From a virus: a stretch of DNA of 20,960 bases. A model generated the notes under the pieces. The model did no database searches. It was not told the DNA's origin and worked only from the letters and a program-made list of their open reading frames with translations. The translations under genes and the position numbers were made by a program. The DNA lies in the IMG/VR virus record IMGVR_UViG_3300013093_001662, positions 1 to 20,960 of that record. One strand, written 5' to 3'. This document shows, in pieces, positions 5,333 through 20,120 of the stretch (the stretch's first letter is position 1; every line of letters starts with the position of its first letter).

Positions 5333-6772
5333 ATGCGATTAATGAGTAATTTTTCCTATAAAGACGCAAGCGGCAATGTAATTCGAGTGCCTGTGCGCTA
5401 CGGCGATGCTTCTAGACAAGCTAGTGCTATCTTAAACAAAAATACTGAAAACGTAATGCCCAGCGCACCGTTTATTGCCTGCTATATTAAAGAACTAAAA
5501 TTTGATCGCGAGCGCATGCAGGATCCTACTTATATAAGCAAACTTAATATACGTGAAAGACAGTACGGATACGAAGATGAAGATCCTAATAGTCCAACAT
5601 ACGGACAAACTATCAATGAATACGCAAACATACAAGGCGGCAATTATACCATTGAAAGATTGATGCCAACTCCTTATATGATATCGTTTACGGCTGATAT
5701 ATGGACATCAAATTTTGATCAAAAATTACAACTATGGGAACAAATTACTGTATTGTTTAATCCAGCAATTGAATTACAGACCACAGACAACTATGTTGAC
5801 TGGACAAGTCTGAGCTATCTTGAACTGATGGACACATCTACATTTGAATCACGTGCAATTCCTCAGGGCCTTAATAATGATCTTAGCATTGCTTCTTTAC
5901 AATTTACAGCACCTGCGTGGATCAGTCCACCGGCCAAGGTAAAGAAACTCGGTATCATTACTAAAATTATTTCAAATGTATTTGCTGAACCAACCGGCAC
6001 AGGCGATGCAGGCGGATACGATGATGCGTTCTATGGTGGAAATATATTTGGCGGACTAACTCCGGATAGTAAGATTGTTGTTACATCAGGTGATTACGGA
6101 TTATTAGTATTAAACAATACCGCGGTATTAGTTCCGCACGATTATATGAATGTCAGCGAGGGCTGGATTGATCCTAATCTAGTGCCAGATCGTCCAAGTT
6201 GGATGAATTTATTGGATCTATATCCTGGTAAATTTAATGCGGGGCTAAGTCAAATACGCTTGACCAAACCAGACGGTAATGAGATAGTTGCTTACATTAG
6301 TCTTAATCCAACCAATGAAGCATTGATGGCACTGAACTTTGATCAAGATACTGTACCTGCTAACACAATCTTAACTGATCACATTCACTTGGTAAGCCGA
6401 GGCACCATTGATGCTATTATTAATCCTCAGACATTTAATCCTCACACTACAGAAGGCGAAAACGTCGATCTTAGATATCTTATCTTAGAAGATGTTGTGC
6501 TTAATCAAGGCGAGGGTGTTACCGAAGCGTGGACTGGAGTAGGAACACCTCCACCTAATGATAATTCAGTGGTTGCAACCATAGCTCACGCAAATGATAT
6601 CATACAATGGGATGGTTTCCGTTGGTGGGTATTATTCGATTCTGCTAATGTTACCACAACTACTTACATAACTAATGCTTATACCAACATCCAATACAAG
6701 TGGGATGGATCACAGTGGTCTAAATCCTACGAGGGGGTTTACACAAATGAGAATTGGCGATTAATACTGTAA
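5333..6772 (+). CDS. 15: Tail terminator / tail completion protein (gp15-like), extended C-terminus
   Basis: T4 gp15 forms a ring on the tail top, stabilises the sheath and joins tail to neck. Here the matching elements are VIRVPVRYGD (near residue 16), PTPYMISFTADIWTSNFDQ (near 111), the following LWEQITVLFNPAIEL, and LSIASLQFTAPAWISPPA (near 183), paralleling 'FIRVPITY', 'PSPIKMIYELSIFTRYEDD', 'IVEQILPYFQPHF' and 'IEWSLTFEVNGWMYPPV'. The intact frame starts at ATG 5333, but similarity continues upstream to about 5288, so the N-terminus is probably longer (see the start-region entry). T4 gp15 is 272 residues; this protein has about 250 further residues ending in two Trp-rich copies, IQWDGFRWWVLFDS and YKWDGSQWSKSYEG. 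Its 3' end overlaps the Nudix frame by 19 bases. Confidence 0.75.
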   Translation: MRLMSNFSYKDASGNVIRVPVRYGDASRQASAILNKNTENVMPSAPFIACYIKELKFDRERMQDPTYISKLNIRERQYGYEDEDPNSPTYGQTINEYANIQGGNYTIERLMPTPYMISFTADIWTSNFDQKLQLWEQITVLFNPAIELQTTDNYVDWTSLSYLELMDTSTFESRAIPQGLNNDLSIASLQFTAPAWISPPAKVKKLGIITKIISNVFAEPTGTGDAGGYDDAFYGGNIFGGLTPDSKIVVTSGDYGLLVLNNTAVLVPHDYMNVSEGWIDPNLVPDRPSWMNLLDLYPGKFNAGLSQIRLTKPDGNEIVAYISLNPTNEALMALNFDQDTVPANTILTDHIHLVSRGTIDAIINPQTFNPHTTEGENVDLRYLILEDVVLNQGEGVTEAWTGVGTPPPNDNSVVATIAHANDIIQWDGFRWWVLFDSANVTTTTYITNAYTNIQYKWDGSQWSKSYEGVYTNENWRLIL

Positions 6773-7194
6773 AAGAAATAGTGTGTTCAGGCGGATTGTT
6801 TATAGCACGCGACACAAAAAGATTTTTGTTCTTACTTAGAACACAAGGCAAAACAGCCAACACCTGGGGACTTGTAGGTGGCAAGCGTGAGCCTAGTGAT
6901 CAAACTCCGCACGATACTCTAATGAGAGAAATTGAAGAAGAAGTAGGAACAACTCCTACTATCCACAAGGTAGTTCCATTAGAGTTATTCACCAGTAATG
7001 ATCAATTATTTCAATACAACACTTATGTTCTAATCGTAGATAATGAATTTATTCCAACCCTTAATGAAGAACATAGCGGGTATGCGTGGTGTGATCTAGG
7101 TGCATGGCCAAAGCCATTACATCGCGGAGTGCGTACCAGTCTTGGCAATCGCATTATTAAAACTAAACTTGAATTATTACGTGAATTAATTTAA
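6754..7194 (+). CDS. Nudix hydrolase
   Basis: Small (146-residue) Nudix-fold protein. GLVGGKREPSD followed by LMREIEEEVG forms the Nudix box; the catalytic helix REIEEEVG with its Glu residues (metal binding) is intact, while the loop before it is one residue longer than the canonical G-x5-E-x7-REUxEExG spacing and has Asp-Gln where Glu is usual. Nudix enzymes hydrolyse nucleoside diphosphates linked to another group X (nucleotide sugars, dNTPs, cofactors, capped RNA); the substrate cannot be read here. The frame opens with TTG at 6754, overlapping the gp15-like gene; GTG at 6781 is the alternative. A G-rich SD-like run at 6731-6737 instead faces an out-of-frame ATG at 6747. The stop meets the APS kinase stop tail-to-tail. 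Confidence 0.83.
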   Translation: MAINTVKEIVCSGGLFIARDTKRFLFLLRTQGKTANTWGLVGGKREPSDQTPHDTLMREIEEEVGTTPTIHKVVPLELFTSNDQLFQYNTYVLIVDNEFIPTLNEEHSGYAWCDLGAWPKPLHRGVRTSLGNRIIKTKLELLRELI

Positions 7195-7628
7195 CTACGG
7201 ACTGCGTGTGTTGCTAGTCGGTACATGATTAGTTTGCTCCAACGAGCCGCATCTTGACTGGTTACATGTACATCATAATGATCAGGTGCTTCGAACATTT
7301 TGTTAGTATCTGCAAACCGACCTTCACTAATAGTATCAACCCATACAGTAAGATCAGCACGAAAATGTTCACGCATCACTGCAAGAGGTGCCACAAAATC
7401 CGCTATCACATAGTCATCAGTTGACCTATCGGCAATAGCACTCATTCGAGTAGATTGACGAATTCGACCGTCTAGACTAAAATCCCAATCGTCGAACTTT
7501 TTTCTAATAGCATCGGCATTGAGCCAGGTTACGGTTTGACCCGCATTTTGTAGAGATTTTTGTAATTCTTCTGCCAGGGTAGTTTTGCCTGCGCCAGGTA
7601 ATCCCATGATCAAAATGCGGTGTGCCAT
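7191..7628 (-). CDS. cysC: Adenylylsulfate (APS) kinase-like P-loop kinase
   Basis: APS kinase converts adenylylsulfate plus ATP to PAPS, the sulfate donor of sulfotransferases. The 145-residue protein has Walker A GLPGAGKTT (9-17), LNADAIRKKF (36-45) matching the 'LDGDNVR' substrate segment of CysC, DGRIRQSTRMSAIAD (53-67) like 'DRxENIRRVxEVA', DFVAPLAVMREHFR (77-90) like 'FISPxRxxRE', and a late FADTNKMFEAP (105-115) resembling the 'G-x-DxPYEAP' tail of the family. It is shorter than typical CysC (about 200 residues) and some hallmark residues differ, so another small AAA_33-type kinase cannot be excluded. It begins 2 bases after the unknown 98-residue gene and shares its late promoter. Two sulfotransferase genes nearby (10337-11161, 15162-15950) give it an obvious customer. 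Confidence 0.72.
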   Translation of the reverse strand: MAHRILIMGLPGAGKTTLAEELQKSLQNAGQTVTWLNADAIRKKFDDWDFSLDGRIRQSTRMSAIADRSTDDYVIADFVAPLAVMREHFRADLTVWVDTISEGRFADTNKMFEAPDHYDVHVTSQDAARWSKLIMYRLATHAVRS

Positions 7629-7630
7629 TA

Positions 7631-7927
7631 TTAACCGTTTAAGATTGTAGTAACTTGAGCAATAAGATCTAGGTTATTCCAAGTATCGCGCACCGCATCA
7701 TACGCATCATTTTGCCATACTATAACACCACGACGACTAGCACCGCGTGTGTAAGTAGATCCGTCTGGATTAGTTTCTGTAGTAAATGGGCCTAATTCTA
7801 CTTCAGCACGTACTTCGCGATTAGCCACATTCTCGTGCATTTCTGTAACCTTAAATTCTGTTGTAACAATACGTTCTGTTAATACCACTTCGTTGGTTAG
7901 TGTACCAATATCTAAAATTCCTGCCAT
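7631..7927 (-). CDS. Unknown 98-residue late protein
   Basis: I do not recognise a family. The protein is soluble-looking, beta-rich and acidic, with Val/Thr/Glu alternation (EVVLTERIVTTEFKVTEMHE, then REVRAEVELGPF), a central NPDGSTYTRGASRRGVIVW turn region and a helical end (YDAVRDTWNNLDLIAQVTTI). There is no signal peptide or membrane segment. It has the best translation signals in its neighbourhood: AGGAGAAC at 7932-7939 before the ATG, and a late element AATAAATA at 7949-7956. High late expression suggests a minor virion or assembly protein. The APS kinase follows after 2 bases and should be co-transcribed. Confidence 0.7.
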   Translation of the reverse strand: MAGILDIGTLTNEVVLTERIVTTEFKVTEMHENVANREVRAEVELGPFTTETNPDGSTYTRGASRRGVIVWQNDAYDAVRDTWNNLDLIAQVTTILNG

Positions 7928-7948
7928 GATAGTTCTCCTGTTATCCTA

Positions 7949-7956
7949 TATTTATT
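7949..7956 (-). promoter_or_regulatory. Putative late promoter for the 98-residue protein and APS kinase
   Basis: Minus strand reads AATAAATATAGG, 21 bases before the ATG at 7927, with AGGAGAAC (7932-7939) between. Spacing fits a T4-type late promoter followed by a short leader. It lies in the 32-base gap after the stop of the glycosyltransferase gene at 7960, so it would re-initiate transcription inside a long minus-strand stretch. Confidence 0.6.
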
Positions 7957-7959
7957 GGG

Positions 7960-8682
7960 TTATGAGTACAATGATTTAATTTCGTCTGGAACTGCTGGTG
8001 CCTGCGGTGCAGGTTGCGGAGTTAGACTAGCGGCAAAATCTGCTGCGTAGATATTACCCGCAATGTTTGCACAGGTTGATGCAGGATTTAACCAAATTTC
8101 AAATCCAAGATCGCGTATCTTATTTGCCAATACGATGCCTTCACTAAAGAATCTACCGTATTGTGTATTGGTGTCAAATACATTCTTTACTTCATTGCCT
8201 GTGGGATTTGTAATAGATAGATTAGAATCATTTAGAGCATCTACTAGTTTCTTACTAAGTTTAATCATCGAAGTACTGGCATAGTTTACTTTAATATAGC
8301 CGTTGGCATCTTGCTGAATCTCAGTGCCAATCTCTAGATCAAATACTGCGTTTGTTCCTGATTTCTTAACGCAGGGCAAGGCCGCAGCATCATACGGTGA
8401 ATTGATAATATCTAATAATGCGTTTGCATCCCAGGCCATATTGTGATCAACGAATACTATACTTTCGTATTCTTGTCCAGATACGATTGCCAGTAATTCA
8501 TTCTTGGCCACAACTGCTGACGAAATATCATTGATAAACAAAGGTATAAGTCTAATGTTACTCAGTGGACTCTGTTTGATTGTATCTGATAGACTGTGTA
8601 CATAGAATGATTCTAGTGTGTTGTTAGGACAATGTGTGCCTATGAACACAGTTCTTAGTGTTGGTTGTTGTACTGCTTCCAT
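7960..8682 (-). CDS. Glycosyltransferase-fold paralogue with degenerate active site
   Basis: This 240-residue protein is a diverged tandem copy of its upstream neighbour (8684-9439). Aligned segments include FIGTHCPNNTLESFYVHSL versus MIGSPSYDGKLDVWYVNSL, and IVFVDHNMAW versus LIWIDTDIEW. The metal-binding DxD (D78-T-D80 in the neighbour) is D79-H-N81 here; the neighbour's SED (182-184) is SEG (180-182), and its C-G-H near the end is C-A-N. Loss of several likely metal and catalytic positions suggests a pseudo-enzyme, a partner subunit, or a changed reaction. The C-terminus adds a Pro/Ala-rich tail (TPQPAPQAPAVPDE). The ATG lies 1 base after the neighbour's stop, with AAGGGAAGA as ribosome site, so the pair is translationally coupled. 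Confidence 0.65.
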   Translation of the reverse strand: MEAVQQPTLRTVFIGTHCPNNTLESFYVHSLSDTIKQSPLSNIRLIPLFINDISSAVVAKNELLAIVSGQEYESIVFVDHNMAWDANALLDIINSPYDAAALPCVKKSGTNAVFDLEIGTEIQQDANGYIKVNYASTSMIKLSKKLVDALNDSNLSITNPTGNEVKNVFDTNTQYGRFFSEGIVLANKIRDLGFEIWLNPASTCANIAGNIYAADFAASLTPQPAPQAPAVPDEIKSLYS

Positions 8683-8683
8683 A

Positions 8684-9439
8684 TTATCTTCCCTTTAAAT
8701 ATCTGTTTAAGTAACTAATACCATTAGTTGTAGGTGGTGGCGGAGTAATCGATGGTTTGAATTTAGTATTAAACCATTGTAAGAAATTACCTGTATATTT
8801 CTTACCACCTACATGTCCGCAGGTCATTGTCGAATCTAGGTAAATGTCAAATCCACCTTCATTTATTAATCTCTTACATACCCATATATCTTCGCTGATC
8901 AAATCATTGTTGCGAATAGCAACATCAAATGCCCATCGTTTTTCTAATCCACCTTTTTCAGTTTCAATATATGGTGGGCTATTGTCCCATAACCATTGAC
9001 ATGCTCGACGACTAAATCTTAAGAATCCTGTGCCAAGGCCGCCGACCTTCATTAGGCCATTAGCATCAATCTCACCAGTGTTATTACCTAAGTTTAACAC
9101 ATATTGTTCTACTGTGTCACCTTTTTTTGGATAAGTTCCGCCAACGATATCAACAGGGTGATCTAGTAAACGATAAAACCATTCTGGCTCCCATTCTATA
9201 TCAGTGTCAATCCATATTAAATCATCGCAGTCCTGTGCTAGAGCCATTGCTAGTGTATCATTGCGGCAGCGTTGTATCAGTGCATCAAAGCTGACCCAGA
9301 TTGGTATTACTTCAACGTTGTGTCGATCTGCTAGTTTCATAGTTTGTATTAGACTGTTTACATACCAAACATCAAGTTTGCCATCGTAGCTAGGCGATCC
9401 GATCATAACTCTACGTTTTTTGTTTACTGATTCTGTCAA
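8684..9439 (-). CDS. GT-A fold glycosyltransferase
   Basis: A 251-residue glycosyltransferase with a GT-A architecture: N-terminal strand VMIGSPSYDG (11-20), then CRNDTLAMALAQDCDDLIWI, then the metal/nucleotide-sugar DxD motif IDTDIEW (77-83). ISEDIWVCKRLINEGG (181-196) resembles the acidic acceptor-site helix, and CGHVGG (207-212) carries a His typical of the third metal ligand. Such enzymes transfer sugar from a nucleotide sugar to a glycan or protein; donor and acceptor are not predictable. The start ATG overlaps the end of the GT4 gene by 29 bases. It is the apparently active member of a tandem pair with the gene immediately downstream. Confidence 0.78.
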   Translation of the reverse strand: MTESVNKKRRVMIGSPSYDGKLDVWYVNSLIQTMKLADRHNVEVIPIWVSFDALIQRCRNDTLAMALAQDCDDLIWIDTDIEWEPEWFYRLLDHPVDIVGGTYPKKGDTVEQYVLNLGNNTGEIDANGLMKVGGLGTGFLRFSRRACQWLWDNSPPYIETEKGGLEKRWAFDVAIRNNDLISEDIWVCKRLINEGGFDIYLDSTMTCGHVGGKKYTGNFLQWFNTKFKPSITPPPPTTNGISYLNRYLKGR

Positions 9440-10337
9440 AGAAATCTCTCCATTCTATCATTCTATAATCCCAGGTCCAAAACCTGTTGTAATAATTCAC
9501 CTGTGCTACTAGTTTAGATTGGTTAGCGGTTGACCAATATTCATCTATTGCCCGATTTAACACAGGTGCGTAATCTCGTGCCATTTGTTTACGGTCTGGA
9601 TTGTAGGGAACAAATGTAGCCCACTGTGCGCAGGTTTCATAAAGTGCGCCGTAATCACTGACTACCATTTGACAGCCCGATGCACCTGCTTCGATTGCTG
9701 ATATACAACTAGTTTCTTCAAACATACTAGGATAGGCAAATATGTGTGCATTTTGTAAGGCTTTGCGCACTCCAGCGTTACTAGCATATCCCATATAATT
9801 TACATTTGGCATGGCCTTGGCACGATCAAATATCCATGTAAATTGACTGCCATAACTGGTATGAAAGAAATCACCATAGATTGTAGTAGACGAAAAAACA
9901 TCTAACTCTACATCATCTCTACCTAACATTTCAAATGCATCTAATAATACATCTAATCCACGCCATGGTGTTGATGTATAGATTAATTTAAGTTTTTCTG
10001 TACGAACTTTTGGTTTATGTTCAAACGGATACACGGCATTTTTGACCACATGCGACTTATGTTGATGCGGTATGTTAAATTTATTACGAAACTTATCATA
10101 ACACCAATGCGAAACATACACAAAATGATCAATACTATCTACGAACTGTTGATCTGCCATTAGAGCAACATTTTCTTCATTCCAATTTAACTGTTGCCAA
10201 AGTACATTAATTTTATTTGGATCAACCGAAGATGGATCACAGGTACTTAATATGAAATTAATATTAGAAGGCCACGATCCTCCTAGATTAGCCAATAATG
10301 CTTGATATGCTAATTCACTTCCGCCTGCTGGTTTCAT
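9411..10337 (-). CDS. GT4-type (GT-B fold) glycosyltransferase
   Basis: A 308-residue retaining-type glycosyltransferase. The nucleotide-sugar half is clear: KLKLIYTSTPWRGLDVLLDAF (near 116-135), NVNYMGYASNAGVRKALQ, then AHIFAYPSMFEETSCISAIE, in which E208 and E216 form the E-x7-E signature of GT4. The protein begins directly at the Gly-rich acceptor loop (KPAGGSELAYQALL), so the usual first beta strand is absent; that is seen in other short phage and metagenomic members as far as I know. The ATG overlaps the sulfotransferase stop (TAATG). It sits in a four-gene overlapping unit: sulfotransferase, this gene and the two GT-A paralogues. Confidence 0.85.
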   Translation of the reverse strand: MKPAGGSELAYQALLANLGGSWPSNINFILSTCDPSSVDPNKINVLWQQLNWNEENVALMADQQFVDSIDHFVYVSHWCYDKFRNKFNIPHQHKSHVVKNAVYPFEHKPKVRTEKLKLIYTSTPWRGLDVLLDAFEMLGRDDVELDVFSSTTIYGDFFHTSYGSQFTWIFDRAKAMPNVNYMGYASNAGVRKALQNAHIFAYPSMFEETSCISAIEAGASGCQMVVSDYGALYETCAQWATFVPYNPDRKQMARDYAPVLNRAIDEYWSTANQSKLVAQVNYYNRFWTWDYRMIEWRDFFDRISKQKT

Positions 10338-11161
10338 TAACCAATCCAGTTAATTTGACGTTTGATATGATCAAAATTATATTTCCAAAACGAACTCTGC
10401 GAATATTGTAACCATAAATCTTCAGGTAATATCGGTTTACGTAGGGTAAATTCTACTCGACGTTTGACTGTATGCAGTCCTGAAATTTTAGCCTGTTCGT
10501 CAAACTCGTCATAGCTATCTTCTACGTTTTCAAAATCGTGTTCGTACCAAGGTTCGCCAAGAAATTCATAAATTCGTTTCATTGTGTCTAGAGGATTCTT
10601 AGCCAGTGCTTCGTAATCAACTACACAGATCATATCCCTGTCATCTGAGTAGACCACTTGTTTAACATTGGCCAACGGTCCAAGCACATATCCTGCTTGG
10701 TTTTGATATTCGCCCATTAACATTCGAGTACGTTCGTACACTGTGCCAAGGTCTTGGTGATTATAAAGTGGTTTGATTGTGAATGGATTCTTTGAATTAA
10801 GTTTTTCAAAACTATCAAGTATCCAAGGAATATCACGCACACATACAATAACTTTAGAGTCTGGATATAATGCACGAACTAACGATGTATTAGCAGACCA
10901 TCCTCTATTGGTATTGAAACAAACTTCGTTGCTATCTTTATAATATGTATCAACAATACCTCGCATGATTTCTTGTTGCTTTTCTTCATTACATTGTGCT
11001 GCCATTCCAACAGATTGGCTCACTGTTGAGGTGATACTTTTAATGAAATCTAACAGTGGATCAGAAATATCTGCTGTAAATCTTGGATTTTGTTTTAGTA
11101 TTGCTGACAGTAATGTTGAGCCTGCTCGAGGTAGGCCTGATATAAAGTGATATTTTTTCAT
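10337..11161 (-). CDS. PAPS-dependent sulfotransferase (first copy)
   Basis: Transfers sulfate from PAPS to a hydroxyl or amine of a glycan, peptide or small molecule. The 5'-phosphosulfate loop SGLPRAGST is at residues 8-16. The 3'-phosphate-binding segment KVIVCVRDIPWILDSFEK (103-120) has R109 and S117 with the expected 7-residue gap. MICVVDYEALAKNP and the following YEFLGEPWYEHDF are typical of the C-terminal region of the Sulfotransfer families, and the 274-residue length is normal. There is no signal peptide or membrane segment, so it is cytoplasmic. It is the first gene of a unit with three glycosyltransferase-type genes. No convincing sigma70 promoter was found in the 60 bases upstream; the divergent HAD gene shares that gap. 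It is paralogous to 15162-15950. Confidence 0.9.
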   Translation of the reverse strand: MKKYHFISGLPRAGSTLLSAILKQNPRFTADISDPLLDFIKSITSTVSQSVGMAAQCNEEKQQEIMRGIVDTYYKDSNEVCFNTNRGWSANTSLVRALYPDSKVIVCVRDIPWILDSFEKLNSKNPFTIKPLYNHQDLGTVYERTRMLMGEYQNQAGYVLGPLANVKQVVYSDDRDMICVVDYEALAKNPLDTMKRIYEFLGEPWYEHDFENVEDSYDEFDEQAKISGLHTVKRRVEFTLRKPILPEDLWLQYSQSSFWKYNFDHIKRQINWIG

Positions 11162-11164
11162 CGG

Positions 11165-11193
11165 TTGTAGTTTCTATTAAATACCTATATAAT
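11165..11193 (+). promoter_or_regulatory. Possible sigma70 promoter for the HAD gene
   Basis: TATAAT at 11188-11193 is a perfect -10 box; TTGTAG at 11165-11170 is a weak -35 (3 of 6), with a 17-base spacer. The HAD gene starts 28 bases downstream with AGAGGA (11212-11217) as ribosome site. The gap is AT-rich, so the -10 could be fortuitous. Confidence 0.45.
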
Positions 11194-11221
11194 TACTACT
11201 AATTATCAATTAGAGGATGCT

Positions 11222-11899
11222 ATGGCAAGATTTAGTGTAGAACGTAATATGGTTCCTGCTCAGGAGCAACAATTAAGTGTAGCATCAAATGATCAACTGA
11301 TCAATGGTCAATTGAATTTTCCTGCTACTTTTGACAAATTTACTATCGGGTTAGATCGCGATGGAGTATTAAACGAACTAGGTGGTATTATTGACACCCC
11401 CGATAAGTATGTGCCTATTGCTAATTCTGCTCGCGCAGTGGCTATCATGCGTTCATTAGGACATAAGATTTGTGTATTGCACGATCAGCCACTGATATCA
11501 CAAAAGAAAATTACCATTCCTCAGGTAGAAACACTTAATCAAGTGATGCTGAACACGTTTGGTGCTGCTGGATGTATCAGCATTGACGGCATTTACTACA
11601 ATACATCAAATAAGAAAGAAGATGATTACGCCAAACCCAAGACCGGGTTAATTAAGCATGCAGAAGGCACATTGCCCGGTGTTAATTTCAAAGGTGGTGT
11701 GTATGTTGGTGATTCTATTGAAGATTTGATCATGGCTGACAAAGCCGGCGCAACACCCGTGTTAGTGCTTACTGGTAATGGTCAAAAAACACTAGCAAAA
11801 TTAGATAGCTTAATTTATAAGATGCTTAAGCCAAAGGTTCAAATATTTGATAACCTTATGGCCTACGCTCTTAACCTTGCTTCACTAACAACTTCTTAA
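11222..11899 (+). CDS. HAD-superfamily phosphatase, GmhB/HisB-like, with altered motifs
   Basis: A 225-residue protein whose core fits the HAD fold. Motif I is GLDRDGVLN (43-51; D45 nucleophile, D47 acid/base), motif III Lys lies in AKPKTGL (137-143), and motif IV is VGDSIEDLIMADKAG (162-176). The DRDGVLN form and the later KP resemble GmhB (heptose bisphosphate phosphatase) and HisB-N, suggesting a sugar-phosphate substrate. However, motif II, normally V-V-T-N-Q, reads V-L-H-D-Q (85-89), and the zinc-binding Cys cluster of GmhB is absent. About 40 extra residues precede the domain. It is the only plus-strand gene within the glycan region; its 3' end overlaps the convergent carbamoyltransferase by 29 bases. 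Role in heptose or other sugar-nucleotide supply is inference. Confidence 0.72.
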   Translation: MARFSVERNMVPAQEQQLSVASNDQLINGQLNFPATFDKFTIGLDRDGVLNELGGIIDTPDKYVPIANSARAVAIMRSLGHKICVLHDQPLISQKKITIPQVETLNQVMLNTFGAAGCISIDGIYYNTSNKKEDDYAKPKTGLIKHAEGTLPGVNFKGGVYVGDSIEDLIMADKAGATPVLVLTGNGQKTLAKLDSLIYKMLKPKVQIFDNLMAYALNLASLTTS

Positions 11900-13559
11900 T
11901 ATCAGGCATATACATATAACTGATATCGCAGTTTGTCAGTGTATGTATAGCATCCTGTACAGTTTCAACCAACGGTTCTCCTGCTAGATTAAAGCTAGTA
12001 TTAAACACCACAGGCACTCCTGTCATCTCAAAAAACTCATTAATCACTGCATAGTACGCAGGGTTATCAGTTTGCTTAACAGTTTGTACACGACAAGTTC
12101 CATCAACGTGCGTAATTGCAGGTAGTTGTCCTACTTTAGCCGCAGTTAAATTTACAGCATACATCATAAATGGGCTTTCGGACATGCCCCGTAGGTCAAA
12201 CCATTCTGCTGCATGTTCTGCTAGTGCTGATCCGGCAAATGGACGGAACCATTCGCGACCTTTGACCTTGTTCACATAGTCTTTACCATCACTTCTACGT
12301 GGATCAAACATGATTGAGCGATTACCTAATGCTCTAGGACCTGCTTCTGCTGCTCCTTGGAACATGGCCACAATGTTGCCTCTAAACAGCAATTCTGCTA
12401 CATCTGCGGCAGTAGCATCTATCAATGAGAAATTACTTGGTAAATTCATACCTTCGTATACTGGTTGTGCGCCAAGATATAAGGTAGTAAGTGGTTCTTT
12501 CACGGTACTCTTGCTGTGTTCGTACCAAGCAAGTTTAGCCAACCCAACACTTGTGCCTCCGTCGTGGCTAATCGGATCAACATAGATGTTAAGATTAGGA
12601 AAGCGACTTAGATAGTAGTAGTTTGCTACACAATTTAACCCATATCCGCCAGCAATAACAATATTAGTTTCACCTGTGGCTGCTGCGGCACGCTCAATTA
12701 GGTCACCAATTAACCTTTGTGTTTCGTCTTGTACTCGCCATGCAAGATTTTTTTCAGTATCAGTGACTTTAGTAAAGTCGCAATGCCACTCTTTTGGATC
12801 ACGGGTTTGTTGTAGATTAGGATATCGATTGACATCAATAAACGCACCTGCTGGATAGCGAGGAATTAATGCGTTCTTATTACCTTTTCCATTGACAAAT
12901 AATTCAGGAATAGCACTATCTGATTTGCCGTAAGGTGCTAGGCCCATGGTCTTGCCAGCTTCAATAAAGCCAAACCCGAGGTATTGACTGACTGCTTCGT
13001 AGGCCTTGGTAATGGTTACACTGTTATCAAATTCTTGTACACCGTTACTATAGTAGAATGTATTACCATCAGCATAGCGTTTATACAATGGTTGTAAGGG
13101 TTCAGTGTAGGAACATTTGTAAACACTTTCTGTTTCATATCCACTGACTGTATTACCTTGCTCGTCTACTGAGGCTGTGTGTTTACTGCCAGCACCATCA
13201 ACAATAATAGCAATAGCTGTGTCAAATCCTGAATTGTAGAACGCACCTGCGGCATGACCAAGATGATGCTGGTGGCCTAAATTAGTTGATTTAATCTTAG
13301 GATTATATTTGCGTGCTAGAGCAGTGTAGGGATCTTCCATGGTCCATGGCAAGATAGGTAATTCAGCAGTAGTACCACCGATGATGATCTCATCTACTGG
13401 ATAACGTTCTAGGATGTACAACATAGCCCTGAAAGGATTTCCGTCATATTTCATGCGAGAAAGACGTTCTTCTTCGCAATAATAGACTATTTTTCCGTCA
13501 ATTATGAGTGCTGCTGAGCCATTATGGCCTGGTGAAACTCCAAGGACTGAATATGACAT
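11871..13559 (-). CDS. Carbamoyltransferase (NodU/CmcH/TobZ family)
   Basis: A 562-residue enzyme predicted to transfer a carbamoyl group from carbamoyl phosphate, through carbamoyl-adenylate, to a hydroxyl of a sugar. The Kae1-like N-terminal domain shows VLGVSPGHNGSAALI (5-19), EEERLSR (29-35), the His-rich metal site HQHHLGHAAG (96-105), IIVDGAGS (118-125) and AGGYGLNCVAN (303-313). The YrdC-like C-terminal domain shows QGAAEAGPRALGNRSI (401-416) and GREWFRPFA (434-442), with VVFNTSFNLAGEPLV near the end. Domain order and length are normal for the family, with no damage seen. The ATG overlaps the GT9 stop by 1 base (TAATG), so both share the promoter at 14515-14543. Members occur in other T4-like phages. 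Confidence 0.92.
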   Translation of the reverse strand: MSYSVLGVSPGHNGSAALIIDGKIVYYCEEERLSRMKYDGNPFRAMLYILERYPVDEIIIGGTTAELPILPWTMEDPYTALARKYNPKIKSTNLGHQHHLGHAAGAFYNSGFDTAIAIIVDGAGSKHTASVDEQGNTVSGYETESVYKCSYTEPLQPLYKRYADGNTFYYSNGVQEFDNSVTITKAYEAVSQYLGFGFIEAGKTMGLAPYGKSDSAIPELFVNGKGNKNALIPRYPAGAFIDVNRYPNLQQTRDPKEWHCDFTKVTDTEKNLAWRVQDETQRLIGDLIERAAAATGETNIVIAGGYGLNCVANYYYLSRFPNLNIYVDPISHDGGTSVGLAKLAWYEHSKSTVKEPLTTLYLGAQPVYEGMNLPSNFSLIDATAADVAELLFRGNIVAMFQGAAEAGPRALGNRSIMFDPRRSDGKDYVNKVKGREWFRPFAGSALAEHAAEWFDLRGMSESPFMMYAVNLTAAKVGQLPAITHVDGTCRVQTVKQTDNPAYYAVINEFFEMTGVPVVFNTSFNLAGEPLVETVQDAIHTLTNCDISYMYMPDIKKLLVKQG

Positions 13560-14497
13560 TAAGGTACCTTACGTTCAATATCTGCTACAATTTCATTGTA
13601 GATTGTTTGCAGTTCTTGTTCGCTAAAGTCAGCCATGCGATCGTTACTGCGATCTGCTAGTATGCTGTCAAGTCCTGTGATACGAATAGGACTGTATTTC
13701 TTAGCGCCTGGTTTTTCTATAATTTGGAAGAAATCCGGATAGCTGGTATTAATTGGGAATGTACTACCAAAGATAACAGTACCTGGTGTGTTAGTTGCTC
13801 GAGCCATATGTTGCCCCACGCTGTCTACTCCAACAAAATAATCAGCTGCGTCAATAAGTGCAGCCCACATACGTAGGTCAGTGGTGTTTGGCAGTTTAAC
13901 TGTGTAGGTATCTGTTACAATTTGGAACTGTGGTTCACCAAAAAATACTAGATTGTAACGTGCTGATAGTTTTTGTACTAGACTAATGTAAGCATCTGGA
14001 CTTAGACTGCGACTGGCTGTGTCAACAATGTCTACACGATCTAACGTAGCACCACGACCAAATGGTTGAATAACCACGGTCTTGGATTTTTGTTGTTGCG
14101 TCTTAACATCAGCAATGGTGTTTACTGCCCACTTTTCTTCAGCTTTGTTAAACAGCATAATTGGTGCGCCTAGATCACTATGATCTGTAGTATTGTTAAT
14201 CTCACAATCAAAACCTTCTACTAGACTAATTTCCTGGCGGAAGTATGCTGGAAGTTTATATGGCTCCGGAGTAATCAACTCGTCGCACAGGGAAATAACA
14301 TTATCCCAAACGCCCTTGGTGTCGGCACCGTAGGTACGATCTTGTAGTTCTGGAATACTCCATAGTAAGTTATCCCATGCTGGGATAATCACTGCCCAAT
14401 CTTTGCTGGGATTTAGTCTACCGTATTTGAGTAATGCTGGAATTGCTGCGATAACACGACCTGCTCCGCCGTCGATATAGAAAACTGTACTAGCCAT
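13559..14497 (-). CDS. GT9-like (heptosyltransferase-type) glycosyltransferase
   Basis: A 312-residue GT-B protein. The N-terminal loop GGAGRVIAAIPAL (10-22) corresponds to the 'G-x-GD-x-x-x-x-x-P' acceptor loop of GT9, with Arg instead of Asp. KTVVIQPFGRGA (139-150) opens the nucleotide-sugar domain. DYFVGVDSVGQHMARATNTP (219-238), followed by GTVIFGSTFP, is the classic GT9 'D-x-x-x-x-x-D-S-x-x-x-H-x-A' site, in the ADP-heptose:LPS heptosyltransferase superfamily. The specific donor is unknown. The start follows AAAGGATC at 14502-14509 and a near-perfect sigma70 promoter. It is the first gene of a two-gene unit with the carbamoyltransferase. Confidence 0.82.
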   Translation of the reverse strand: MASTVFYIDGGAGRVIAAIPALLKYGRLNPSKDWAVIIPAWDNLLWSIPELQDRTYGADTKGVWDNVISLCDELITPEPYKLPAYFRQEISLVEGFDCEINNTTDHSDLGAPIMLFNKAEEKWAVNTIADVKTQQQKSKTVVIQPFGRGATLDRVDIVDTASRSLSPDAYISLVQKLSARYNLVFFGEPQFQIVTDTYTVKLPNTTDLRMWAALIDAADYFVGVDSVGQHMARATNTPGTVIFGSTFPINTSYPDFFQIIEKPGAKKYSPIRITGLDSILADRSNDRMADFSEQELQTIYNEIVADIERKVP

Positions 14498-14514
14498 AAT
14501 GATCCTTTTTTCTT

Positions 14515-14543
14515 AGTATACAACTAATTTATCACTGTGTCAA
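14515..14543 (-). promoter_or_regulatory. Near-consensus sigma70 promoter for the GT9-carbamoyltransferase unit
   Basis: Minus strand has TTGACA (14538-14543), a 17-base spacer and TATACT (14515-14520, 5 of 6). The transcript would start near 14508, about ten bases before the ATG at 14497 with its AAGGA ribosome site. It lies in the 74-base gap after the six-gene unit upstream. Confidence 0.82.
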
Positions 14544-14571
14544 GTGGTGGTGCTAGGATTTAGATATTTGT

Positions 14572-15165
14572 TTATTTCTTCATTATACCGATTTGATTTG
14601 TCAGCAGAGTCTGTTCAAATTTATCATTGAAAGATTGACCAAATGAATCTATTCCAATCTTGGGACATTTTAATGGATCGTCTTTAATATAAGGTTTATC
14701 TCCCAGATTCCATCCCCAGGTATAGTCATCAAAAATCATTATGCCACCGGAATTTAATAACGGAAATGACATAACAGCATCGGATAACACATCAGCCGCT
14801 TGATGGCTACCGTCGATATAGATAAAGTCGAATCGTTCGTTATTAACAATTAGCTTTGCAATTGCATTATAGGAAATATCTTTATAAACCTCATACTTTT
14901 GATTTTGCCCAATCACTTCTTCTATGTTTGAAATACAAGTATCATATAAAGAATTAGATACATAATCTTTGTGTTCTTCTCCACCTTCGAATGTATCAAT
15001 TACTGTGATAGATCCAGCTTCGTTGAGATAATTCTTTATAAACCAAGTAGTAGATAGTCCTTCGTAGCAGCCAATTTCAAGAAATTTAGTTCTAGTTTGG
15101 AGTGTATCTAAACATCTAGTTACTCCTGGAATATTATAACTAAACCAATCTGCACTAAATTTCAT
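14572..15165 (-). CDS. Class I SAM-dependent methyltransferase (Methyltransf_24 type)
   Basis: A 197-residue single-domain protein. Motif I KFLEIGCYEGLST (27-39) is the SAM-binding loop, VIDTFEGG (55-62) ends strand 2 with the acidic residue for the ribose, FDFIYIDGSHQAADVLSDA (112-130) is the conserved strand-4 region, and GGIMIFDDYTW (140-150) the strand-5 region typical of Methyltransf_24, many of which methylate sugars. The acceptor is unknown. It is the last gene of the six-gene unit, overlapping the sulfotransferase stop by 4 bases (ATGA). Methylation would be a further tailoring step beside sulfation and carbamoylation. Confidence 0.85.
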   Translation of the reverse strand: MKFSADWFSYNIPGVTRCLDTLQTRTKFLEIGCYEGLSTTWFIKNYLNEAGSITVIDTFEGGEEHKDYVSNSLYDTCISNIEEVIGQNQKYEVYKDISYNAIAKLIVNNERFDFIYIDGSHQAADVLSDAVMSFPLLNSGGIMIFDDYTWGWNLGDKPYIKDDPLKCPKIGIDSFGQSFNDKFEQTLLTNQIGIMKK

Positions 15166-15950
15166 TTATATTCCTTTTCTATTGCAACAAATCTATTATA
15201 CAATTCTTCGCCTAATACTTCCTTAGGGTCTTTTGATGTTTTTTCCAATTTGGGTCTAATGGTATGAAGTCCTTCAAATCCCCAAGCTACTAGATCGTCA
15301 TCTGTTGTGTCGCTTTGTATGTTATCAAAGTCGTATGCGTGCGTGGGCAAATCTAAGAATTGTTCAATTCTTAGAATTTCGTGCCGGGGATTACTTACAA
15401 TATCGTCATAATTGACTACCATTATTTGATCAGGAACATCCTTCTTAATCTGTTGAGTTCCTTCCATACAGTCTTTAACCATATTAAACCACATTTCTCC
15501 CATACGATTTTCATCATTAATCATCATTCCATTTTTTAATAATATATTATCAAAATTAGAGTTAGTTTGATTCCTGATAATAGTTAGCCACGACGCCATA
15601 ATACTAGGAAGGTCTCGCTCAACAACTACTACTTTAATTTTCTCACCAAATAAGGCATTAACTGTTGGCATATTTTTTGCCCAGCCCCTGCCTTTGTCAA
15701 TGATAATAGGTTCGGGTCTATGTTGCCAAAATGCAGGTAATATTGCCTTGGTTAGATTTCGTGCTTGCTCTTCAAAGTAGTTGGCCTTGACCGTTGGGTC
15801 TTCTCGCCACGCTTCTTGCATTTTAACCGCAACATTCAACATCGGACTAGTAGGAGTAACATATACACTAGGATTTTGATTAAGTATAGATGCTAGTACA
15901 GTAGATCCTGAACGAGGTAGTCCTGATAGAAAGTGTAGGGTTTGTTTCAT
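15162..15950 (-). CDS. PAPS-dependent sulfotransferase (second copy)
   Basis: The 262-residue product has the 5'-phosphosulfate loop SGLPRSGST (9-17) and the 3'-phosphate segment VVVERDLPSIMASWL (108-122), with R112 and S120 correctly spaced. It shares with the first copy the pattern SILNQNPSV...SPML after the loop, a conserved RGW (88-90), IMVVNYDDIVSNPR and a GLHTIRP segment near the end, so the two are paralogues, but they are widely diverged and probably use different acceptors. It is cytoplasmic by sequence. It overlaps its neighbours by 4 bases on both sides (ATGA), between a GT2 glycosyltransferase and a methyltransferase, in the unit driven by the promoter at 18997-19025. Confidence 0.9.
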   Translation of the reverse strand: MKQTLHFLSGLPRSGSTVLASILNQNPSVYVTPTSPMLNVAVKMQEAWREDPTVKANYFEEQARNLTKAILPAFWQHRPEPIIIDKGRGWAKNMPTVNALFGEKIKVVVVERDLPSIMASWLTIIRNQTNSNFDNILLKNGMMINDENRMGEMWFNMVKDCMEGTQQIKKDVPDQIMVVNYDDIVSNPRHEILRIEQFLDLPTHAYDFDNIQSDTTDDDLVAWGFEGLHTIRPKLEKTSKDPKEVLGEELYNRFVAIEKEYK

Positions 15951-16756
15951 AAAACTCCTATAATCATTTCACGTTGCTCTTTTGTAATTGGTGCTTGCTT
16001 TAGTATCTCAGTAAGTTGCTCAGTTATTTTATTAAACCAATCATCTTTTTTATTATGGTGTGCAATAAACAAACAGGCCCCTAAAATAAACTTATCTAAT
16101 TGCTGACTATTTCTGTAATGATATAATAGATACCATAAGTTCCAAGTATTAGTTGGATTTTCTTGATATTCATCTTCCATCATTTTAATGTACAGTTCGG
16201 GTCTTTCTTTCTTTCGAAAATCTTGGTCGTGAATTAGAAATATTTCATCGGAATATAATTCAAGTTCTTCTCGGTCTTTATGAATCCAACTTAGGTGCTC
16301 ATATATCGGTTGGTTCCACGTATAGTCTGCTCTAAGATGTATCTTATTAGTGGCAATGAAATTAGGTGGACCTACCCTAACCGTTTTAGAATATAGGTCT
16401 AGTCTATCACAGGCAATATTTGTAATCTTTGGCACTGCCTTAATGATAATTTCCATCTGTTCTCTGGTATTGATAGAGAAGTATTCATCTAGGTCTGGTG
16501 ATAAACACCAAGTGACTTCTTCCGGCACCATTGCTAGATTATATCTGCGAGCAATATGGAATTTCCAAGGAGTAAATATTTTTTGTTCTATAATTAGATT
16601 AACATCATCTTTGGCATATTCTTGTAACATCTCCCAAGAACCGTCAGTAGATCCAGTATCTAATAGAACTCTATAATCGAAAGGTTGAGTATAATATAAC
16701 CACTTCTCAATGTACTTCTTTTCATTCTTTAATATCGTGTAGGCTGCTGTTTTCAT
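15947..16756 (-). CDS. GT2-type glycosyltransferase (GT-A fold)
   Basis: A 269-residue protein that opens with the glycosyl_transferase family 2 pattern AAYTILKNEKKYIEKWLYY (4-22), followed by VLLDTGSTDGSW (30-41), in which D33 would bind the nucleotide, and SPDLDEYF (86-93), whose D88-x-D90 is the metal site. It resembles the short Glyco_tranf_2_4 type, where 'E-x-x-x-I-x-E-W' precedes 'D-x-x-S-x-D-x-S'. The C-terminal third is helical with many Trp/Tyr (NTWNLWYLLYHYRNS). Donor and acceptor are unknown. It overlaps the CxxCxxCC gene upstream and the sulfotransferase downstream by 4 bases each. Confidence 0.85.
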   Translation of the reverse strand: MKTAAYTILKNEKKYIEKWLYYTQPFDYRVLLDTGSTDGSWEMLQEYAKDDVNLIIEQKIFTPWKFHIARRYNLAMVPEEVTWCLSPDLDEYFSINTREQMEIIIKAVPKITNIACDRLDLYSKTVRVGPPNFIATNKIHLRADYTWNQPIYEHLSWIHKDREELELYSDEIFLIHDQDFRKKERPELYIKMMEDEYQENPTNTWNLWYLLYHYRNSQQLDKFILGACLFIAHHNKKDDWFNKITEQLTEILKQAPITKEQREMIIGVL

Positions 16757-17127
16757 TTTTCACCTTTGAAATACTCTTTTGCAAATTCAGTTAATGCGGG
16801 ATGATGACCTTTTCTGCAATCAAACTGTCTGCAGGCTCTTGGTCTATAATTATATATGCTGCATTTTCCATCAACTAACATTCCACATCCTCCCTCTTTT
16901 TTTCTATAAAGAGTCACAATGGGTCCAATATCAGGATTAGCTTGTATTTGTTCTTGACTCGGTTGTATTAAACTTAATGGATATAATCCTGATGTTACTT
17001 CTTCAGGAGATAAGAAAGGTGCTAGTGTTTCACAACAGAGTACACAGGAACCGCAGGGCACATCTTCGATGGGGTCATCACTGCCGATAGAAGTTAGATT
17101 AATATTAATTATTTTATAATCAATCAT
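16753..17127 (-). CDS. YkgJ-type CxxCxxCC metal-cluster protein
   Basis: A 124-residue protein with PCGSCVLCC (24-32), the C-x-x-C-x-x-C-C signature of the YkgJ family, plus C81, C89, C99 and C104 in GGCGMLVDGKCSIYNYRPRA and CRQFDC. The second half C...G-x-C-x-I-Y-x-x-R-P-x-x-C is also characteristic. The eight Cys probably bind zinc or an iron-sulfur cluster; the biochemical role of the family is not established. It is embedded with 4-base overlaps between two glycosyltransferase genes, so it is co-translated with glycan enzymes and may act on or with one of them (inference). Confidence 0.85.
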   Translation of the reverse strand: MIDYKIININLTSIGSDDPIEDVPCGSCVLCCETLAPFLSPEEVTSGLYPLSLIQPSQEQIQANPDIGPIVTLYRKKEGGCGMLVDGKCSIYNYRPRACRQFDCRKGHHPALTEFAKEYFKGEK

Positions 17128-18422
17128 AGTAAAGAAGTTAATTCAGTCAATGGAGCATTCCAGTTATCATATTCAGTTTGCCGCAGTACCGTTAGATTAT
17201 CACCATACCATTTTGAATGATAGTCGGGTTTGGCCCAAGTGTAGTACGTTAGAATAGGAATAATGACTATAGAATTTTTTCCTATTGCGCCTGCGGCGTG
17301 AATTAAAGATGTACAGCTTGATACCACAATGTCCATTTGATCCAAATAGTCTAATGTATCGTCCCAGGTTTTAATTTTATCCTTCAGTGGAATTACTCTA
17401 GGGTGAGCAAAGTCCTCATCGATATGAAATGAATATATTTCATAATCATCTGGAATATGAGAAATCAGTTGTTCAAATGGAATAGTTCTATGAAGGTCTT
17501 GGTCATATTTTGGATTACCCATACACTTAATACCAATCTTTTTCTTACTAGTGCTGGGCAATTTAGCTGCATTGTTGATAGGAGTTAAATATGTACCATA
17601 CCATAAATCATCTTCATTTAAGTCTAGATAAGTTGGCGATGGCATCGAATAAGTCCATAACCAATCTTTTGGAATTTCTTTTAGATCAGATATTGTTTTA
17701 AATCCATTACGTTCAAATATAGCACATATATCTTTACGGTCACTATACCAAATTGGCGTCATTCCGAGGTCTCGAAAATGTTTCATAAACCTTACTGAAA
17801 TTATTTCATCACCGATTCCACCCTCCGCACAAAGAACAATAGTCTTACCTGGTTGTGGATTGCCTTCCCATAATTGCTCTTGTGGATACTTAAACTCGTG
17901 CCAAATGTTTAATTTACGACCATCCAGTAAGACTCGTCGCAATCCTTCTTTGAAATTACCATTGCGCAAATCGTAGGTGCCAAGATTAAAGTTTACTCTA
18001 AAATTAACGTCTTCTGTGTGTGGTTCCAATAGAATATTTCTTAGTATTGCTTCACCTTGAGCTTTTTGGTCAAGCAAGAAGTAACACATTGCCTTGTCCA
18101 TTTGATTTGGATGATCTTTTGGTCTCTCTCGTTCGTTAATACTGATATAGGTAAGTGCTTCTTTAGGTTTATTAAGATTAAGATAAGCTCGAATGATATT
18201 AACTCTAGCATCAAACCTAGCATCAGGAGTATTCACCAAAGAATAAATTCTTTCTGCTAATTCCAAAGTATCATTAAATTCCCTAATATCAGCATAGAGT
18301 TTACCAATTTGGTCGATTTCTTCAATTCTTTGGGCAAAGGGTTTTAATAAATCTAATACTATTTTTGCCTTATCGAATTGTTTTAAGAATATAAAGAACT
18401 CAGCGGTTGCTAGAGGGTTCAT
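17124..18422 (-). CDS. TPR-like repeat protein fused to a GT9/GT41-like glycosyltransferase domain
   Basis: A 432-residue two-part protein. Residues about 1-180 are helical repeats with TPR-like spacing (AEFFIFLKQFDKAKIVLDLL, AERIYSLVNTPDARFDARV, AYLNLNKPKEALTYI, FNLGTYDLRNGNFKEGLRR). Residues 190-430 form a GT-B glycosyltransferase: KTIVLCAEGGIGDEIISVRF (193-212) is the acceptor loop of the GT9-like group and DIVVSSCTSLIHAAGAIGK (364-382) its nucleotide-sugar motif, with the His-Ala-Ala pattern kept. TPR-glycosyltransferase fusions are known to glycosylate proteins, so a protein (perhaps virion or surface) acceptor is conceivable. It overlaps the methyltransferase upstream by 23 bases and the CxxCxxCC gene by 4. 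Confidence 0.82.
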   Translation of the reverse strand: MNPLATAEFFIFLKQFDKAKIVLDLLKPFAQRIEEIDQIGKLYADIREFNDTLELAERIYSLVNTPDARFDARVNIIRAYLNLNKPKEALTYISINERERPKDHPNQMDKAMCYFLLDQKAQGEAILRNILLEPHTEDVNFRVNFNLGTYDLRNGNFKEGLRRVLLDGRKLNIWHEFKYPQEQLWEGNPQPGKTIVLCAEGGIGDEIISVRFMKHFRDLGMTPIWYSDRKDICAIFERNGFKTISDLKEIPKDWLWTYSMPSPTYLDLNEDDLWYGTYLTPINNAAKLPSTSKKKIGIKCMGNPKYDQDLHRTIPFEQLISHIPDDYEIYSFHIDEDFAHPRVIPLKDKIKTWDDTLDYLDQMDIVVSSCTSLIHAAGAIGKNSIVIIPILTYYTWAKPDYHSKWYGDNLTVLRQTEYDNWNAPLTELTSLL

Positions 18423-18963
18423 CTTTTTTCACCATTAATTTAATACCAATCTCGAGAATCACATTGTTAAAAGTTCTTGCGGTGTGTTCACATTGTTCAT
18501 CGGAGAAGTTTTTGAATTGCTCTCGCCAATATTCATCGAGCACAAATGTATGGTCTGCTACATATAGGTCTACATCATATATAAAACCTAATGGGGTTTC
18601 GCACCCATTGGCATCTAAATCTCGTTTATTACGGGTCTTTGAAAACATATCCAACGTGTGTGGATATATAGGTCTTTTGTGAGTAGGGTCAATCAGAAAT
18701 GTATCGTGACGTGGATGTGGTACTCGGACATCAATAATAGTATCGTGTTTACATACACGGTATAATTCTTGAATACAGTTAAAGAATCCATCGCCTAGGT
18801 GTTCTAAGATATGGTGGGCGATTACTCCGTCAACTGAATTATCATCGAATGGTAGTTTTTCTGTTTCTAAATCAACCACAAAGTCTGGATTAGAACCCAC
18901 ATCTGCGTCAATGTTTAAGAAACCTGGATATCGTTTAGCCCCCGAACCAATATTAATTCGCAT
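18400..18963 (-). CDS. SAM-dependent methyltransferase (Methyltransf_11-like)
   Basis: A 187-residue protein. The N-terminus RINIGSGAKRYPGFLNIDAD (2-21) contains a SAM-binding motif I in the short 'L-x-x-G-x-G-x-x-x-x-x-G-x-x-N-x-D' form. DLETEKLPFDDNSVDGVIA (31-49), followed by HHILEHL, is the usual strand-4 and post-motif region of Methyltransf_11. Such proteins are frequent in surface-polysaccharide clusters. The middle (PHPRHDTFLIDPTHKRPIYP) is His/Pro-rich. The substrate is unknown. It is the first gene of the six-gene unit; the ATG lies 34 bases after the -10 box, and only a weak GAGA ribosome site precedes it. Confidence 0.82.
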   Translation of the reverse strand: MRINIGSGAKRYPGFLNIDADVGSNPDFVVDLETEKLPFDDNSVDGVIAHHILEHLGDGFFNCIQELYRVCKHDTIIDVRVPHPRHDTFLIDPTHKRPIYPHTLDMFSKTRNKRDLDANGCETPLGFIYDVDLYVADHTFVLDEYWREQFKNFSDEQCEHTARTFNNVILEIGIKLMVKKDEPSSNR

Positions 18964-19030: not shown

Positions 19031-20120
19031 TTAATAGTAATCTTCACGGATGGCTGCGGTATGATACCCTCCACAGGCCACTTGTTTCCAGTTAGTACCA
19101 GCACTAATGGTCTGTACTGGACTGCTTCTATGGGTAATAGTATTATCACCTAGTCCGCCGTAGGTGTTGCGTCCCCAGGTCCATAGGGTACCATCAGTTT
19201 TGATGGCTACGGTATGGAATCTTCCACAGGCCACCGATTTCCAATTAGTACCAGCAGCAATCGTCTGTACTGGACTGCTTTTAGCAGCTACAGTATTATC
19301 ACCTAGATTGCCAAATACTGCATTCCATCCCCAAAGCCATAGTGTACCATCAGTCTTGATGGCTGCGGTATGATAGTATCCACAGGAGACTAACTTCCAG
19401 TTGGTGCCGCCACTAATGGTCTGGACTGGACTTGATTTAGAATTTCCTGAAGTATTGTTACCTAGTTGACCATAGTTATTACGTCCCCAAAGCCATAGTG
19501 TACCATCAGTCTTGATAGCTGCTGTATGATAGCCTCCACCAGCCACCGATTTCCAGTTAGTACCACCTGCAACAGTTTGGATAGGACTGGATCTATGTAC
19601 TACACTAGAACCATCACCTAGTTGGCCATAGGTGTTACGACCCCAAAGCCATAGGGTACCATCAGTTTTGATGGCTGCGGTATGATACCCACCAGATGCC
19701 ACTGACTTCCAATTAGTACCACCAGCAACAGTCTGTACTGGACTGCTTCTATGGGTAATAGTATTATCACCTAGCTGACCATAGGTGTTACGACCCCAGA
19801 GCCATAAAGTGCCATCAGTCTTGATGGCTGCTGTATGATAGTATCCACTTGCGACCAGTTTCCAATTAGTACCACCTGCAACAGTCTGGACCGGACTGCT
19901 TTTGCTGACAGTAGTATTATCACCTAGAGCGCCATAGGTGTTATATCCCCAAAGCCATAGGGTACCATCAGTTTTGATGGCTGCTGTATGATTGGGTCCA
20001 CCCGAGACTAACTTCCAATTAGTACCACCAGCAACAGTCTGGACAGGACTGGATTTATTGACTACAGTATTGTCACCTAGTTGTCCGATAGTATTAATTC
20101 CCCAAAGCCACAATCCACCA
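19031..20120 (-). repeat. Seven tandem 153-156-base coding repeats (RCC1 blades)
   Basis: The block around 'ggtaccatcagt' recurs at about 19190, 19346, 19502, 19658, 19811 and 19964, spaced 153 or 156 bases, with a more diverged copy near 20105. Copies are very similar at DNA level, and the same unit continues in the next gene (for example at 20864), offering many sites for unequal recombination. Confidence 0.85.

Follow-up and report, generated by a model that had tools for sequence, protein, structure and literature searches.

A probable glycan-tailoring cassette on a phage, combining two predicted sulfotransferases with a divergent, lid-less APS-kinase-like protein

In this work we describe a gene cassette on a stretch of viral DNA that constitutes the entire 20,960-base IMG/VR record IMGVR_UViG_3300013093_001662 (hereafter the window) and that forms a piece of a T4-like phage genome. 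The T4-like setting had been proposed in an earlier, sequence-only reading of this DNA and is borne out by matches to dNMP kinase, head-tail adaptor and tail sheath stabilizer genes. The cassette, which lies largely on the minus strand, brings together two predicted sulfotransferases of the type dependent on 3'-phosphoadenosine 5'-phosphosulfate (PAPS), several glycosyltransferases, a NodU-type carbamoyltransferase, two methyltransferases and, as its final enzyme gene, a kinase resembling those that phosphorylate adenosine 5'-phosphosulfate (APS) (Table 1). We consider it probable that this region serves in the building and tailoring of a glycan, with the kinase drawing on host APS to supply the two sulfotransferases, and that the modified glycan is most likely one carried by the fibre or repeat proteins of the phage itself.

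Key to this interpretation is the identity of the kinase. A profile built from 27 relatives and compared with the PDB returned APS kinases first and as nearly all of the best matches (E 4e-15 to 6e-7), the next kinase family being PSTK (E 3.5e-5). An AlphaFold model of the protein (predicted local distance difference test score, pLDDT, 92.6) retrieved APS kinases nearly throughout the top 50 Foldseek matches, with a template modelling score (TM-score) of 0.85 to the APS-bound enzyme of A. fulgidus. Profile comparison with CysC and structure prediction were the checks put forward in the sequence-only reading, and both group the protein with APS kinases. Alignment to E. coli CysC shows that the P-loop, the Arg of DGDxxR (NADxxR in the phage protein), the Phe of LGF and the Arg of ADR are retained; we take the Arg, Phe and Arg to be the residues that contact APS in CysC. 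Across the 27 sequences the P-loop motif G9-K15, R42, F50 and R55 are invariant. As judged from these comparisons, the protein encoded at 7191-7628 is a member of a divergent, lid-less branch of the APS kinases (CysC). KTI12, Zeta toxin, PSTK and NadR were also considered as its home family and rejected, APS kinases ranking first by both profile and fold. The family also occurs in unusual arrangements: one relative (L069:7372-8310; labels of this kind denote the loci and, with G, the genomes compared) is extended at its C-terminus by a domain reading like a 2-oxoglutarate-Fe(II) oxygenase, which Pfam does not recognise, and in another locus (L193:12987-14354) two unlike kinase copies stand in tandem, one single and the other fused to a nucleotidyltransferase.

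Both sulfotransferases retain the two PAPS-binding motifs, PRxG and R...S, and the structures nearest to them are those of PAPS-dependent tyrosylprotein sulfotransferases (TPSTs; E 6e-12). Alignment of the active sites with PAPS-dependent structures had been set beforehand as a test of their assignment, and the alignment holds. The catalytic Glu of TPSTs, which we presume to follow the 5' PAPS motif, is absent at that position from both proteins, and because it is not conserved, tyrosine sulfation does not appear to be indicated. A sugar acceptor is instead suggested by the glycosyl-, methyl- and carbamoyltransferases of the cassette.

The kinase and sulfotransferases are linked well beyond the window. 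Scans of IMG/VR located the kinase at 37 loci and the two sulfotransferases at 31, and among 30 records fetched for sulfotransferases the kinase was present in 22. It follows the sulfotransferase immediately and in the same orientation, with an overlap or a gap of no more than 10 bp, in L035, L037, the L042 group, L046, L049, L050, L066 and L069/L070, and homologs of sulfotransferase 2 are the genes immediately preceding the kinase in phages other than this one. Among the phages with adjacent genes are T4-like genomes as well as several further phage contexts in which genes of fibre-like or repeat type lie close by. That the family sits beside sulfotransferases of the PAPS type in several phage settings unrelated to one another supports an APS kinase role for it.

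The strongest evidence that this kinase family performs the task of CysC in sulfation comes from bacterial operons. On a Rhodoferax plasmid (L282:4513-6576) a tail fiber assembly protein, a sulfotransferase and the kinase are encoded consecutively. In Microvirga lotononidis (L279:6676-16819) the gene order is nodABCIJ, a NodH-like sulfotransferase, a phage-type kinase joined to a nucleotidyltransferase, CysD, and CysN fused to DUF2061 (PF09834), where the nod gene names are our reading by eye of a record nearly without annotation. The Microvirga CysN has no CysC kinase domain, and the kinase-nucleotidyltransferase gene directly precedes cysD-cysN. The same DUF2061 is fused to the phage kinase in L176, L178 and L235, adjoins it as a separate gene in about ten further phages, and in two nod islands of Mesorhizobium separates a sulfotransferase gene from cysD-cysN. 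If our interpretation is right, these associations would tie DUF2061, an unassigned family, to sulfate activation.

In the proposed scheme the kinase would phosphorylate the 3'-OH of APS made by the host, yielding PAPS; the glycosyltransferases would build an oligosaccharide; and the carbamoyl-, methyl- and sulfotransferases would add their groups to this chain. We infer that the enzymes are active in this way and that their product benefits the phage. The source of APS was addressed with a sister genome of 259,419 bases (G001), which is identical to the window (100%) across the 17.6 kb compared and is perhaps not quite complete. As the sequence-only reading had noted, the window has no ATP sulfurylase (PF01747). 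A look elsewhere in the genome, which that reading had advised, found no protein matching the canonical families PF01747 or PF01507 in G001, nor was DUF2061 found there, and the nucleotidyltransferase that accompanies the kinase in other genomes was found in neither the window nor G001. Since G001 is thus without a known ATP sulfurylase, the companion nucleotidyltransferase and DUF2061, APS must presumably be taken from the host, and the description of the pathway as near self-sufficient is not supported for this phage. The broader proposal of the sequence-only reading, that the cassette combines sulfation and glycan tailoring with a kinase able to form PAPS, gains support from the kinase family, the sulfotransferase motifs and the genome context, and more of it than the letters alone could give.

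Several observations weigh against this interpretation. The kinase has no counterpart of the CysC lid, RDPKGLYKKARAGEL in the aligned E. coli enzyme; of the features expected of a CysC, the APS-site Asn is replaced by Gln and the lid RDPKGLYKKARAGE is deleted; and the NCBIfam apsK model gives 43.5 bits, compared with its cut-off of 138.7. The protein therefore has the fold and family of an APS kinase without full membership of CysC, and its function has to be argued from context. A Sulfotransfer_3 gene was recognised in only 5 of 40 kinase-bearing viral records, many of which are short fragments, so that the family may have another use, and within the window itself the kinase sits 2.7 kb from the nearer sulfotransferase. 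Furthermore, the strict pairing seen at 78 carbamoyltransferase loci, where sulfotransferase and kinase are both present in 23, both absent in 55 and never found one without the other, reflects just three changes on the tree and is discounted for that reason as independent evidence.

Most relatives of the kinase carry a HIGH-type nucleotidyltransferase, either as a C-terminal fusion or as a nearby gene, with the conserved motifs GRxQPxHxxH, GRxVGY and ISATxxR. By sequence this domain is nearest to NadM (E 2e-9), and no ATP sulfurylase was found among its PDB matches. In the model of a fused protein, pLDDT falls below 50 at residues 227-251 of the nucleotidyltransferase half, and the fold search with this model therefore informs on the kinase domain alone. 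Named phages with the fusion, annotated just as 'kinase' or hypothetical, are DLP_6 (L001), Clavibacter phage 33 (L002) and Bhz60 (L003); no sulfotransferase was found in these three records. In Microvirga the domain has lost two conserved arginines (GR..GY to GL..GY, ISATxIR to VSPTAVQ) and looks degraded, as expected if it were redundant beside the CysD-CysN encoded just downstream.

In the SAR11 bacteria, kinase and nucleotidyltransferase occur together in 79 of 80 loci (L094-L173), and a search with PF00685 detected a sulfotransferase in 10 of 11 genomes. ATP sulfurylase of the PF01747 type was present in one of the 19 SAR11 genomes searched and was not found in the other 18, these genomes being incomplete and many of them single-cell assemblies. 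Matches to PF01507 were weak and partial and fell mostly within frames of 506-529 residues, which we take to be GMP synthase and not CysD. A scheme in which the nucleotidyltransferase makes X-AMP and the kinase phosphorylates its 3'-OH would best fit X = sulfate, because of the sulfotransferases. We accordingly offer, tentatively and with somewhat less than even confidence, the suggestion that the NadM-like domain seen in phages and in SAR11 represents a kind of ATP sulfurylase that has so far escaped recognition, which would make the fusion a compact PAPS synthase (about 265-285 residues) supplying sulfotransferases where CysD/CysN or PF01747 is absent; the window phage would then hold a reduced version that has kept the APS kinase alone. 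The degraded Microvirga domain is consistent with such a role. The order of the fusion, kinase and then HIGH-type nucleotidyltransferase, is that of the bifunctional PAPS synthase of animals (APS kinase - ATP sulfurylase), from which it differs in its size, in the NadM-like rather than PF01747 character of the second domain, and in its absence from the window phage. If correct, this suggestion would provide a route to PAPS in SAR11, where sulfotransferases are present and known ATP sulfurylases mostly absent. By eye, genes reading as dmdA and MTHFR lie near the SAR11 kinase-nucleotidyltransferase in L095, L104 and L127, and L095 additionally has a methanethiol-oxidase-like gene.

The main alternative for the acceptor is a surface glycan of the host, modified by the same cassette and PAPS supply such that the altered envelope blocks adsorption of further phages (superinfection exclusion). 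Glycosyltransferases of the GT4, GT9 and GT2 types, like the GmhB-like HAD protein, belong to families common in envelope polysaccharide synthesis, which speaks for this view; we nevertheless regard it as unlikely, since related cassettes are flanked in many phages by fibre-like or RCC1-repeat genes, the Rhodoferax cassette directly follows a tail fiber assembly gene, and we noticed in the window neither an O-antigen polymerase or flippase nor an obvious membrane acetylase. These conserved neighbours point to fibre or repeat proteins of the phage rather than the host envelope. Virion fibres, or a glycan of the cassette's own making, fit the context better, and a glycan on virion proteins is our leading guess as the target; the RCC1-repeat protein adjoining the cassette is a possible acceptor.

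Two further alternatives concern the substrate of the kinase. It might instead phosphorylate another nucleotide-linked group at the 3'-OH, as in the methyl phosphoramidate capsule pathway of Campylobacter, in which a protein resembling APS kinase takes a CDP-linked intermediate as its substrate. The divergence of the kinase, its missing lid and Asn to Gln replacement, and the glycan-tailoring surroundings would suit such an activity. It would leave the linkage to sulfotransferases, CysD-CysN and DUF2061 unexplained, however, and no other gene of that pathway was recognised in the annotation of the window, where no search was aimed at them; we consider this very improbable. Alternatively, the protein could be the kinase half of a NadR-like pair for NAD salvage, acting on nicotinamide riboside, with its proximity to sulfotransferases reflecting chance clustering of accessory genes. 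The NadM-like character of the linked nucleotidyltransferase is compatible with this, as are an NADAR-type gene adjoining the fusion in L002 and L003 and the occurrence of NadR, NadM and NadV in phages (PMC9503650). Against it, the kinase is nearest to APS kinases by fold and sequence, with NadR not among the top matches; NadV occurs in just 3 of 39 phage records; in G085, NadV and a distinct NadM-like gene are present in addition to the nucleotidyltransferase linked to the kinase; the kinase occurs in operons with a sulfotransferase and with CysD-CysN; and the window phage has the kinase without the nucleotidyltransferase. We judge NAD salvage to be improbable, if somewhat less so than the capsule-type activity.

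The proposed sulfated-glycan cassette resembles the rhizobial Nod-factor system (NodH, NodPQ, NodU and the Nod methyltransferase), which likewise clusters a sulfotransferase and its own PAPS-forming enzyme with a NodU-type carbamoyltransferase, methyltransferases and glycosyltransferases, and a member of the phage kinase family stands in the nod-type cluster of Microvirga. The phage cassette differs in having two sulfotransferases, in the absence of CysD/CysN and of a recognised chitin synthase, deacetylase and acyltransferase, and in being located on a phage. Sulfotransferases of the Sulfotransfer_3 type, about 29-38% identical to the two described here, are present in cyanophages S-SRM01 and S-SKS1 and in OM43 phages, and their role has been called unclear (PMC10580990); in the two cyanophages, the stretches of 10-13 kb that were read contain no kinase of this family. 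Viral cysC has been reported as an auxiliary metabolic gene in Lake Baikal viromes (PMC8066274), where an APS-kinase annotation in viral DNA was placed under energy metabolism in the sulfur pathway, in a main text without the word sulfotransferase. A literature search to which most subscription papers were out of reach found no report of a phage APS kinase joined with a sulfotransferase. Phage sulfotransferases and viral cysC are thus each already known, and their joining seems to be the new element. If our interpretation is right, phages carry an enzyme making the sulfate donor besides the sulfotransferases, which would mark sulfation of phage-encoded structures or glycans as a real, selected function and would link phage cassettes to rhizobial Nod-factor sulfation.

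The remaining genes of the cassette and its flanks are listed in Table 1. Family searches matched all of the sulfotransferases, APS-kinase-like protein, methyltransferases, carbamoyltransferase and HAD protein named in the sequence-only reading, and every open reading frame it listed is open where it was placed, on the minus strand with the exception of the HAD and NUDIX genes. Its count of six glycosyltransferases fared less well: three score above curated cut-offs (9411-10337, 13559-14497 and 15947-16756), two are weaker candidates, and the second half of the TPR protein, which reads like a glycosyltransferase by eye, has no match in family libraries or the PDB. Of the two candidates, 8684-9439 matches phrog_1574, a family of unassigned function, and has weak glycosyltransferase matches besides, and 7960-8682 matches phrog_1574 alone and weakly. 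Both the N-terminal and C-terminal NodU/CmcH domains of the carbamoyltransferase exceed the Pfam cut-off. The NUDIX gene belongs, as judged by synteny, to a conserved neck/sheath block and not to the cassette.

Table 1. Predicted genes of the cassette and its flanks (coordinates in the window).
Feature	Coordinates	Strand	Basis
NUDIX hydrolase	6754..7194	+	PF00293 51.1 bits; synteny
APS-kinase-like protein, 145 residues, lid deleted	7191..7628	-	PF01583 50.1 bits (cut-off 21.1); fold, profile, CysC alignment
98-residue protein, no family match	7631..7927	-	often adjoins kinase in relatives (synteny)
Possible glycosyltransferase, weak	7960..8682	-	phrog_1574 E 6e-4 only
Possible GT2-like glycosyltransferase	8684..9439	-	phrog_1574 75.9 bits; weak glycosyltransferase matches
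GT4-type glycosyltransferase (Glycos_transf_1)	9411..10337	-	PF00534 39.2 bits, above cut-off
Sulfotransferase 1	10337..11161	-	PF13469 (Sulfotransfer_3) 64.9 bits (cut-off 27); PAPS motifs PRAGSTLL and RD...S
HAD phosphatase, GmhB-like	11222..11899	+	PF13242 above cut-off; NCBIfam GmhB-like 86.7 bits, under cut-off 178
NodU-type carbamoyltransferase	11871..13559	-	PF16861 202 bits, PF02543 81 bits; phrog_1601 501 bits
GT9-type glycosyltransferase	13559..14497	-	PF01075 28.5 bits, above cut-off
Methyltransferase (Methyltransf_24)	14572..15165	-	PF13578 65.7 bits
Sulfotransferase 2	15162..15950	-	PF13469 65.1 bits (cut-off 27); motif PRSGSTVL
GT2-type glycosyltransferase	15947..16756	-	PF13704 37 bits, above cut-off
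CxxCxxCC metal-binding protein, recurrent cassette member	16753..17127	-	PF03692 32.2 bits; synteny
TPR protein with possible glycosyltransferase half	17124..18422	-	weak TPR matches; no PDB match; glycosyltransferase reading by eye
Methyltransferase (Methyltransf_11)	18400..18963	-	PF08241 32.1 bits
RCC1-repeat protein, possible fibre/adhesin	19031..20206	-	RCC1 256 bits; flanks cassettes in relatives

Ratios of nonsynonymous to synonymous substitution rates (dN/dS), computed between the window and L005, are 0.13 for the kinase, 0.06 for sulfotransferase 1 and 0.07 for the carbamoyltransferase, a clear signature at the sequence level of purifying selection on these genes. Elsewhere in the window, an open reading frame at 2189-2566 resembles an HNH_3 endonuclease (23.5 bits, slightly below the Pfam cut-off of 24.8). 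Beyond the cassette, two RCC1-repeat genes (19031-20911) enclose an unassigned gene of 167 residues (20196-20699), and this arrangement of an RCC1 gene on either side of a gene of the 167-residue type recurs in L042, L045, L049 and L067.

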